A DNA stretch of 64,000 nucleotides from Halobiforma lacisalsi AJ5. GTDB taxonomy: Archaea > Halobacteriota > Halobacteria > Halobacteriales > Natrialbaceae. The position numbers and the translations under genes were made by a program. The stretch spans positions 1,488,001 to 1,552,000 of the forward strand of contig NZ_CP019285.1 of NCBI RefSeq assembly GCF_000226975.2. Direction: 5' to 3'. The notes under the pieces are model-generated. The model searched no databases. It was not told the DNA's origin and worked only from the letters and a program-made list of their open reading frames with translations. Within the stretch, counting starts at the first letter, position 1. Every line of letters starts with the position of its first letter. Positions 61,004 to 63,710 of the stretch are shown one piece after another.

Positions 61004-61666
61004 ATGAGCACCGTCCCGTCCGAACCGACGCAGTTGCTCGCCTCCGTGGTCGTCGTCGACTACGGGTTAGGGAACCTGCGCAGCGTCACCCGTGGCCTCG
61101 AGCGCGCGGGCGCAGACGTCGAGATCACCGACGATCCCGCGGCGTTCGAGGCGGCCGATGGGGTCGTCCTGCCGGGCGTCGGCGCGTTCCGTGAGGGCGT
61201 CGAGAACGCCGACCCCCTCCGCGAGGACCTGCTCGCGGTCGCGGAAAGCGACACGCCGCTGTTCGGCATCTGTCTTGGCATGCAGATGCTGCTGACGACC
61301 AGCGAGGAGGGCGAAAACGACGGCGAGTCGGCCGTCCGTGGACTCGATCTGATCCCCGGCACCAACGTTCGCTTCGACGACGGCCAGAAGGTCCCGCACA
61401 TGGGCTGGAACCAGCTCGAGGTCGAGCGCGAGCACCCGCTCGTCGACGGAGTAGATGGCGAGCACGCCTACTTCGTCCACTCCTACTACGCCGTTCCGGA
61501 CGACGGGAACGCCGTGGTCGCGACGACCGACTACGAACGGGAGTTCCCCTCGATCGTCGCCAACGAGGAGGGCACCGTCTTCGGGACCCAGTTCCACCCG
61601 GAGAAGAGCGGTGAGACGGGACTGCGGATCCTGCGGAACTTCGTCGAAATCTGCGCCGACGAGTAG
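61004..61666 (+). CDS. hisH: Imidazole glycerol phosphate synthase, glutaminase subunit HisH
   Basis: The protein has 220 residues of class I glutamine amidotransferase type. VVVDYGLGNLRSVTRGLERAG is the HisH start, the catalytic Cys90 is in FGICLGMQML, and the His/Glu are in GTQFHPEKSGETGL. It supplies ammonia to HisF in the fifth step of histidine synthesis. hisF is not in the window. The TAG stop runs straight into T5 (61667-61671), a likely terminator at the edge of the origin region. Confidence 0.95.
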   Translation: MSTVPSEPTQLLASVVVVDYGLGNLRSVTRGLERAGADVEITDDPAAFEAADGVVLPGVGAFREGVENADPLREDLLAVAESDTPLFGICLGMQMLLTTSEEGENDGESAVRGLDLIPGTNVRFDDGQKVPHMGWNQLEVEREHPLVDGVDGEHAYFVHSYYAVPDDGNAVVATTDYEREFPSIVANEEGTVFGTQFHPEKSGETGLRILRNFVEICADE

Positions 61667-61671
61667 TTTTT
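61667..61671 (+). terminator. T-tract terminator of hisH
   Basis: Five T directly after the stop codon, on the edge of the replication origin region; this would limit transcription into the origin. Confidence 0.45.
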
Positions 61672-61761
61672 CGATTCTCCCTCTCGAGGGGTACGTTCCG
61701 GATCGGTATGGGCGACCCTCGGGATCGGTGACCAGTGGAGAGTCGCGATCCGTCCGGAGAC

Positions 61762-61786
61762 ACACCCCTCGGTGCCGCTGTATAGG
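61762..61786 (-). repeat. ORB-like origin box, inverted copy
   Basis: On the minus strand this reads cctatacagcggcaccgagg followed by ggtgt, the same box as the plus-strand cluster. It is the only inverted copy and lies on the far side of the AT-richer segment. Confidence 0.75.
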
Positions 61787-62082
61787 TTCTCGAGACGGAC
61801 GGAGTGTGCTGAATACAGGGATTATAACTCATATTAATCGTCCGAAGGAGAGGGCGAGTGAGAGGCGGGGCCACTATGAATCGCTACCATTAACTAGAAA
61901 ACTTGTGTTAAATTCCATCGAGCGGATCGAACGGTTTGGCCTTCGGGCGGGGTCGAACGGCCGTACGCTCTCGAGGAGACGCCTTCCTCGACGTCCACTG
62001 CGTGTTTTCGGCTCTTACGGCCGCCCCTTCCGATCCCAGGACAGCCGAACCTCTGTTTCGAATCGACGGCCTTCCCACACCG

Positions 62083-62136
62083 TTACAGCGGCACTCCGGG
62101 GTGTGTGTCTCCCTATACAGCGGCACCGAGGGGTGT
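62083..62136 (+). repeat. ORB-like boxes 1 and 2
   Basis: ttacagcggcactccggggt (62083) and tatacagcggcaccgagggg (62114), 31 bp apart, in the same orientation and with a strong G-run. Confidence 0.8.
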
Positions 62137-62177
62137 CGAACGATCCGTTCGACCTCGATGACAAACCTTTTGAATCG

Positions 62178-62199
62178 ATACAGCGGAAATACGGTGTTC
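62178..62199 (+). repeat. ORB-like box 3, degenerate
   Basis: gatacagcggaaatacggtg keeps the acagcgg core but has lost the GGGG run. It is 64 bp (two periods) after box 2. Confidence 0.6.
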
Positions 62200-62293
62200 G
62201 CGCCGCGCTCGAGGTCGGCGATCCGACTTCGCGTCGCCTGTCGCGACGTGGGCGGAAGCTCGTGGAACGACTGGAGACGACCGGAGAGGACAC

Positions 62294-62406
62294 GATACAG
62301 CGGCACTCCGGGGTCGGCCGCACCTATACAGCGGCACCGCGGGGTCGGCGGCTATACAGCGGAACCGCGGGGTGCCTGATCCGCCATACAGCGGAAATCC
62401 GGGGTC
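62294..62406 (+). repeat. ORB-like boxes 4 to 7
   Basis: gatacagcggcactccgggg (62294), tatacagcggcaccgcgggg (62325), tatacagcggaaccgcgggg (62353) and atacagcggaaatccggggt (62385). Spacing is 31, 28 and 32 bp, all in the same orientation. Confidence 0.82.
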
Positions 62407-62415
62407 CGTATTCCT

Positions 62416-62470
62416 ATTCAGCGGACGTCAAGATCCGAAAGTCACGCTATACAGCGGAACTTCGGTCCCG
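62416..62470 (+). repeat. ORB-like boxes 8 and 9, degenerate
   Basis: attcagcggacgtcaagatc (62416) and tatacagcggaacttcggtc (62449) keep the core and the 31-33-bp period but lack the G-run. They lie just before the orc1 start and could also take part in autoregulation of orc1. Confidence 0.65.
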
Positions 62471-62510
62471 AACGCTTAAGTTGAACCCGCGAAACGGTAC
62501 TCGTATCTGA

Positions 62511-63710
62511 ATGTCGGATTCGATGGACTATTTCGGGAGCGAGAACGAGATCTTCCGGAACAAGGAACTCCTGCAGGTCTCCCATCTCCCCGACGGCGAC
62601 CGTATCATCGGCCGCGAGGACGAACTGTCGAACCTCGCGAACGCGATCAAACCGGCGACGCGGGGCAACACGCCCAACAACGTGCTCGTCTACGGCAAGA
62701 CGGGGACCGGCAAATCGCTGTGCTCGAAGTTCATCACGACACAGGCCGTCGAACGGGCAGAGCGCAACGACGTGTCGATCGGCGTCGCCTACGTCGACTG
62801 CCTTCAGGAGTCGACCGAGACCCAGGCCGTCCAGTCCGCCGGCCACCAGCTCAACGACGATCCCGAGACCGACATCTCGATCCCCCACTCGGGGTTGAGC
62901 ACGTCGGAGTACTACCGGCGGCTGTGGCGGATCATCGATACCCGCTACGACGTTGCCCTCATTATCCTCGATGAGGTCGACAAGATCGAGGACGACGACA
63001 TCCTGATGCAACTCTCGAGGGCCGTCGAGTCCGGCAAACTCACCTCGAGCACCGTTGGAGTCATCGGCATTTCGAACAAGGTCCGGTACAAGGATTCGCT
63101 GGACGAGCGAATCAAATCGAGCCTCTGTGAACGCGAGTACGTCTTTTCGCCGTACGACGCGACCCAGATACGGGAGATCCTGCGGTCGCGCTCGGACGCG
63201 TTCCACGAGGGCGTCCTCGAGGACGGCGTCGTCCCCCGCGTCGCGGCGCTCGCTGCCCGGGAACACGGCGACGCGCGAAAGGCGATCGACATCCTCCGCT
63301 TTGCCGGCGAGATCGCCGAGGAGAACGACCTCGAGACGGTCACCGAGGGCTGCGTCGATCAGGCCCACGAGCGCGAGGAGACAAGCCGGCTGGCGGAACT
63401 GATCTCCAAGAGTCCCAGCCACGCGAAACTCGTGCTCGAGGCGATGGCGCTGTTGACCCAGCAGAAGGAGGGCGACGACGCGCCCGTGACGACCAACGAG
63501 GCCTACGATCTCTACAAGCGCCTCTGCGAGCGGGACCAGTCCGACCACCTGAAACTGCGCCGGGTTCGGGACATCCTCTCGGAACTCGAGTTCCTTTCGA
63601 TCATCGAACAGGAGCGCAAGTGGGCCGGCAAGGGGAAGGGTAACTACATGGAAAACCGGCTGATCGACGATCCGGCGGTTATCCTCGCGGCCTGTAACGA
63701 GTCGGAGTGA
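62511..63710 (+). CDS. orc1: Replication initiator Orc1/Cdc6
   Basis: The protein has 399 residues of AAA+ type. Walker A is GKTGTGKSLC at 62-71, Walker B is LIILDEVDKIEDDD, and sensor regions follow (GVIGISNKVRYKDSLDERIKSS). The C-terminal part is a winged helix (TNEAYDLYKRLCER, RDILSELEFLSI) that contacts ORB DNA. It binds the adjacent boxes and loads MCM. The start at 62511 is 40 bp after the last ORB-like box. It is one of probably several Orc proteins in this genome. Confidence 0.96.
   Translation: MSDSMDYFGSENEIFRNKELLQVSHLPDGDRIIGREDELSNLANAIKPATRGNTPNNVLVYGKTGTGKSLCSKFITTQAVERAERNDVSIGVAYVDCLQESTETQAVQSAGHQLNDDPETDISIPHSGLSTSEYYRRLWRIIDTRYDVALIILDEVDKIEDDDILMQLSRAVESGKLTSSTVGVIGISNKVRYKDSLDERIKSSLCEREYVFSPYDATQIREILRSRSDAFHEGVLEDGVVPRVAALAAREHGDARKAIDILRFAGEIAEENDLETVTEGCVDQAHEREETSRLAELISKSPSHAKLVLEAMALLTQQKEGDDAPVTTNEAYDLYKRLCERDQSDHLKLRRVRDILSELEFLSIIEQERKWAGKGKGNYMENRLIDDPAVILAACNESE

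Follow-up and report, generated by a model that had tools for sequence, protein, structure and literature searches.

Multiple Orc-specific origins, ORBs with a G-string, dormant origins and titrating arrays are all established in haloarchaea (PMC3528665, PMC3936714, PMC4595724, PMC4010727). In Haloarcula hispanica, initiator-specific origins, essential G-strings and titration by an ORB array have been described (PMC3936714), and the published haloarchaeal ORBs had to carry a G-string (PMC3528665). The control of initiator levels, in archaea endowed with several origins and several initiators, is an open question on which the locus analysed here touches.

We studied an array of boxes located between hisH (left) and an orc1/cdc6 gene (right) in a window of 64,000 nucleotides (i.e. 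the whole stretch of DNA analysed, G000:C1:1488001-1552000). The genome (4.38 Mb, with a chromosome of 4.16 Mb) gave 13 Orc matches, some of them pairs of fragments from a single gene. The locus belongs to the known haloarchaeal kind of orc/cdc6-adjacent origins. An orc1-linked origin had been proposed in a preliminary description of this DNA, and this proposal is well supported by the observed anatomy, conservation and genome uniqueness of the array and by its linkage to this Orc. We consider it quite probable that the locus acts as an origin secondary to oriC1 on this Natrialbaceae (Halobiforma-like) chromosome, in which Orc1 would bind the boxes, DNA would open at a core, and autorepression and titration would adjust Orc1. 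The features are as follows (positions in the window):

61004..61666, + strand: hisH (TIGR01855 above cut-off), left neighbour, marking the chromosomal site of the cassette
61762..61783, - strand: box V, inverted distal ORB, whose long tail reads GGGGTGTGTCTC to ~61755
61872..61931, unstranded: the 60 bp richest in AT within the origin (GC minimum 0.38), lying between V and D1, candidate unwinding element
61889..61959, + strand: conserved central element (consensus over 35 loci), with a TTAAATA-like part (61889-61897), a CTGTGTnAAnGTCCATTGAG-like part (61902-61922) and three heptamers, TCGAACG (61927-61933), inverted CCTTCGG (61940-61946) and TCGAACG (61953-61959)
62083..62112, + strand: box D1, with long tail GGGGTGTGTGTCTCC (GGGG in 39/39 relatives)
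62115..62136, + strand: box D2, GGGG class (GGGG in 36/39)
62178..62199, + strand: box D3, of the class conserved as G-less (GGGG in 3/39), located 63 bp past D2
62295..62316, + strand: variable middle box 1, number and place differing among relatives
62326..62347, + strand: variable middle box 2, number and place differing among relatives
62354..62375, + strand: box P1, -157 from the ATG, position conserved
62386..62407, + strand: box P2, -125, position conserved (GGGG in 33/37)
62416..62437, + strand: degenerate, weak box ATTCAGCGGACGTCAAG (14.8 bits when included in its own matrix)
62449..62470, + strand: box P3, -62, conserved G-less class, proposed autoregulatory operator (GGGG in 0/37)
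62471..62480, + strand: putative orc1 BRE/TATA (AACGCTTAAG), AACGYTTAA-like in most relatives
62511..63710, + strand: orc1/cdc6 initiator gene, 399 aa (TIGR02928, E 1e-125; Pfam AAA, Cdc6_lid and Cdc6_C)

The ten ORB-like boxes (consensus ATACAGCGGMAMYSCGGGGT) were present where first described, nine of them facing orc1 and one inverted, and all are upstream of this gene. Nine scored far above chance, with leave-one-out scores of 19-28 bits, the best score in twenty 64-kb Markov shuffles being 18.7 bits (typically 9-15) and the best remaining real match inside the window reaching 11 bits. Genome-wide, the seven exact matches to TACAGCGGMAMNNNGGGGT all fell in this locus, as did the sole match with one mismatch, and the reversed control pattern gave 0 exact matches; boxes scattered away from orc genes, which would have spoken against an origin, were thus looked for and none was found. 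Successive forward boxes start 32, 63, 117, 31, 28, 32, 30 and 33 bp apart, so that the announced period of ~31 bp holds for six of the eight intervals (28-33 bp) and fails for two (63 and 117 bp). GGGG, i.e. the G-string expected of an ORB, is carried by 7 of the 10 boxes. Neither the core ACAGCGG(A/C)A nor the number of boxes is as unusual as initially thought: TAACAGCGGAAACAGTGGGGT has already been reported from Haloquadratum walsbyi and Halorubrum lacusprofundi (PMC3528665), and ten boxes are unexceptional next to a published array of 11 (PMC3936714), an orthologous array of 21 and ~13 boxes on one strand beside another orc of the same genome. The orthologous array, in Natrarchaeobius chitinivorans (L130), has 20 forward boxes from -872 to -61, mostly 33-36 bp apart, its middle array being expanded between conserved triads. 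The other array of this genome (L168:8420-9150, G000:C1 ~2.3314-2.3321 Mb) is composed of ~13 forward boxes TTCATTTCGA and two inverted ones, with alternating spacings of ~20 and ~27 bp, i.e. a different regular lattice.

The adjoining initiator is intact and well above 300 aa: its AAA+ and winged-helix domains are preserved, and it aligns to the origin-binding Orc1 structures 2v1u and 2qby. Its closest named relative is that of Halobiforma haloterrestris (99%). Among relatives, orc1 shows a nucleotide identity of 0.85 versus a mean protein column identity of 92%, hence Orc1 looks under purifying selection.

To compare the layout among relatives, 40 distinct orthologous loci were retrieved by whole-genome and GTDB searches (Orc identity 80-100%). 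At least one inverted box (V) was found upstream in all 40. A distal triad D1-D2-D3 was recognised in 39 loci, with spacings of 32-34 then 63-64 bp (63-64 bp between D2 and D3 in 39/39), and a promoter-proximal triad P1-P2-P3 in 37 loci, with spacings of 32-33 then 63-65 bp; the number of boxes between the triads is variable. Among relatives, the spacers within triads share only 37-45% identity (25% in the shuffled background) yet are nearly constant in length, which points to selection on spacing, at ~3 and 6 helical turns. The distances V-D1 (288-852 bp) and D3-P1 vary widely. The claim that boxes line up on one helical face therefore stands for both conserved triads, whose spacings are 32 and 63-64 bp, and falls for the remaining intervals: phasing of all boxes was rejected, as only the triads and ~32-bp neighbours fit, and intervals above 40 bp outside the triads showed no helical phasing (Rayleigh p ~0.17 at 10.5 bp). 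Rigid triads with diverged spacers offer a defined substrate on which to study how several Orc1 molecules would assemble on one face of DNA.

Boxes also fall into conserved classes. Besides the counts listed above, GGGG occurs in 26/37 P1 and 68/82 middle boxes, and the extended GGGGTGTGTCTC tail in 34/38 V and 25/39 D1 but in no D2 or P1, V and D1 being its sole carriers among the boxes tested. Three boxes had been described as having lost their G-run; GGGG is indeed absent from 62178, 62416 and 62449, but decay is the wrong explanation for D3 and P3, since nearly every relative has them G-less too. Those at 62178 and 62449 thus form a conserved short class, and only that at 62416, where other orthologous loci have no box, is a lineage-specific degenerate copy. 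Searches requiring a G-string in ORBs would overlook this G-less class.

Between V and D1, the AT-richer stretch noticed earlier is real, its lowest 60-bp GC (0.38) starting at 61872; V and D1 flank the AT-richest 60 bp in 37/39 loci, often ~100 bp inside V, and so provide the inverted ORBs around an AT-rich stretch by which haloarchaeal origins are recognised. The same region contains a central element missing from the preliminary description, whose consensus order is TTAAATA, eight bases, CTGTGTnAAnGTCCATTGAG, then heptamers in direct, inverted and direct orientation. Heptamer letters vary in concert between species (TTGAACG, TTGGACG, TCGAACG, GTGAACG). A hairpin in RNA or DNA was considered as the cause of the three heptamers and seems the less likely one, because the direct pair (first and third) is better kept than the inverted pair (first and second), which favours protein sites. 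The element may belong to the unwinding element and offer sites to a second protein, or it may be a promoter equipped with operators. In the mechanism that we propose, the Orc1 encoded at 62511 would bind the boxes, the long-tailed V and D1 would delimit the AT-rich core for DNA opening and MCM loading, and the rigid D triad would set further Orc1 molecules on one face beside it. The middle boxes, freely varying in number, may serve as an adjustable sink tuning free Orc1.

Such a sink could also be the whole function of the locus, the boxes merely controlling orc1 expression and sequestering Orc1 while replication starts elsewhere. The oriC2D of Haloarcula hispanica is an 11-ORB array devoid of origin activity (PMC3936714), and P3 overlaps the orc1 promoter region; yet oriC2D lies downstream of its gene, and a pure sink would need neither inverted long-tail boxes around an AT-rich stretch nor a conserved central element. 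We hold this explanation to be unlikely.

Under the origin reading, P3 would additionally allow Orc1 to repress its own transcription. This G-less box, at -58 to -63 in relatives, abuts the orc1 BRE/TATA, an AACGYTTAA-like sequence following directly. Two initiator families of the same genome, both unrelated to Orc1 (62511), have a comparable arrangement: TTACATCCGCGATCGATCTCC, placed at -63, precedes TTTATTT in the L003 family (7/7 genomes, at -63 or -64), and TATCAGTCTGAACTACCTTCC, placed at -56, precedes TTTTATT in the L002 family (7/7 genomes), both promoter boxes being devoid of the G-run present in other boxes of each family. For the plasmid Orc L004, G-less cores overlap one another between -73 and -55. 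From the recurrence of a G-less promoter box in unrelated Orc families, we infer that each Orc would repress its own gene; judged from sequence, the promoter-abutting box suggests initiator autoregulation, and its occurrence in three independent initiator families makes it a concrete and easily tested candidate. There is about equal reason to believe and to doubt that this reflects a hidden rule of haloarchaeal origins, whereby the BRE/TATA of each initiator gene would be joined, at a constant distance, to a G-less version of that gene's own ORB and initiators would autorepress through this distinct short class of box, the box at this locus ending a repeated 32/63-bp triad that would count Orc molecules on one DNA face. 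In the open-licence literature, we found no description of the layout in two triads, the conserved classes of tail, the G-less box fused to the promoter or the central element.

The link between boxes and this Orc was further assessed in 61 genomes: at least two exact boxes were found only beside this Orc, a broken copy or a relative of it, with one exception (two matches on a 3.8-kb contig). Other Orcs of the same genome carry other boxes, the box thus being Orc-specific. Beside the Orc at 3.057 Mb, a transposase-like insertion of ~886 bp (L167:8400-9450, G000:C1 ~3.0584-3.0594 Mb) seems to split the origin; in relatives G001-G008 the boxes of this Orc are together (-400/-227 in L197 versus -1286/-227 in L167).

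The cassette forms a discrete block of ~2.06 kb between hisH and a convergent gene. In cassette-free relatives, no box is left; the flanking genes directly adjoin in G014, while in G035 a short spacer and in G002 another gene stands between them. Within the sequence covered around each locus, the neighbour is also hisH in 28 orthologous loci, and the hisH label requires four changes on the tree versus 12 in shuffles, some rows lacking hisH only because of a short sequence stretch; inheritance at the hisH site thus appears mostly vertical, with some loss or movement. Orcs 84-87% identical are encoded on megaplasmids of Natrinema, Natronosalvus and Natrononativus, so this Orc family also lives outside chromosomes. 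These megaplasmid Orcs, together with the clean empty sites, are what a plasmid origin captured at hisH and now vestigial would leave; layout and Orc protein are nevertheless strongly conserved at the chromosomal site, implying that the locus is not vestigial in most lineages, and we regard such a capture as very improbable. One relative, G028 (L193, G028:C42:226237-227988, on the same contig as L144), constitutes a natural case of an origin array beside a broken initiator: the array is intact and the orc gene is in two pieces, residues 168-224 being missing.

Several observations run against the origin reading. The switch of GC skew expected at the locus was absent from a profile sampled along the chromosome in 80 blocks of 20 kb: no switch was seen at 1.55 Mb and skew was weak everywhere, this being a supporting rather than a required criterion, and a test of little power where a chromosome has several origins. 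Transcription of an rRNA operon 280 kb away runs toward the locus, an orientation unlike that of rRNA operons near active Haloarcula origins (PMC4441112). The cassette is missing from some close relatives, and G028 retains the array beside its broken Orc gene. In Natrinema J7, a fragment carrying a predicted origin with 8 ORBs (oriC4) together with its cdc6 gave no transformants (PMC5350488), its family possibly differing from that of the present locus. Part of this evidence would fit a dormant origin, structurally complete and silent in the wild type, outcompeted by oriC1 and others and firing upon their loss. Haloferax mediterranei has proven dormant origins whose inverted ORBs adjoin cdc6 (PMC4595724), skew signal is absent here and several relatives dispense with the locus; the dormant origin of H. 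mediterranei is, however, rare and in variable context, while the present locus keeps both its place at hisH and its fine grammar in 28 lineages, which suggests regular use. We hold dormancy to be less probable than not.

Compared with the haloarchaeal orc/cdc6-adjacent origins of Wu et al. 2012 (PMC3528665), the locus has in common its intergenic position next to orc/cdc6, ORBs that bear a G-string and stand inverted around an AT-rich stretch, and an initiator-specific box; it differs by two of nine forward boxes being conserved as G-less, by the two 32/63-bp triads and by the conserved central element. The TAACAGCGGAAACAGTGGGGTGGGGGGGT ORB of 'Origin II' in Haloquadratum walsbyi and Halorubrum lacusprofundi (PMC3528665) has nearly the same core, ACAGCGGAAAC then GGGGTG; these are second arrays beside other Orcs, likened to the present locus by box sequence only. 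With oriC2D of Haloarcula hispanica (PMC3936714), it shares many ORBs (11 in 722 bp there) and a proposed titration of the initiator; oriC2D is located downstream of cdc6E and has no origin activity, whereas all boxes here are upstream of orc1, so that the locus does not match this type of titration array by position. Resembling the published oriC2D titration array in this respect, seven G-string boxes lie downstream of the plasmid (C2) Orc gene (L004:1180-1440), with two to three upstream. Identity with oriC1, which is universally conserved in haloarchaea, was rejected: the classical two-ORB origin lies at ~0.976 Mb (L171), next to an Orc, with a gene for a DNA polymerase subunit following. 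There, two inverted G-string ORBs likewise flank an AT-rich stretch, also with CTAAATAC, but the two boxes are of another sequence, the Orc is another one and there are no triads. This Orc1 (L171:6486-8624) contains within its AAA+ domain an acidic, probably disordered insertion of ~130 aa, the appearance of which led us to discard an intein. Bacterial iteron plasmid origins follow a similar logic, i.e. direct repeats, an adjoining initiator gene and a repeat-related operator at the initiator promoter; their initiator family and boxes are unrelated, and the resemblance is one of logic only.
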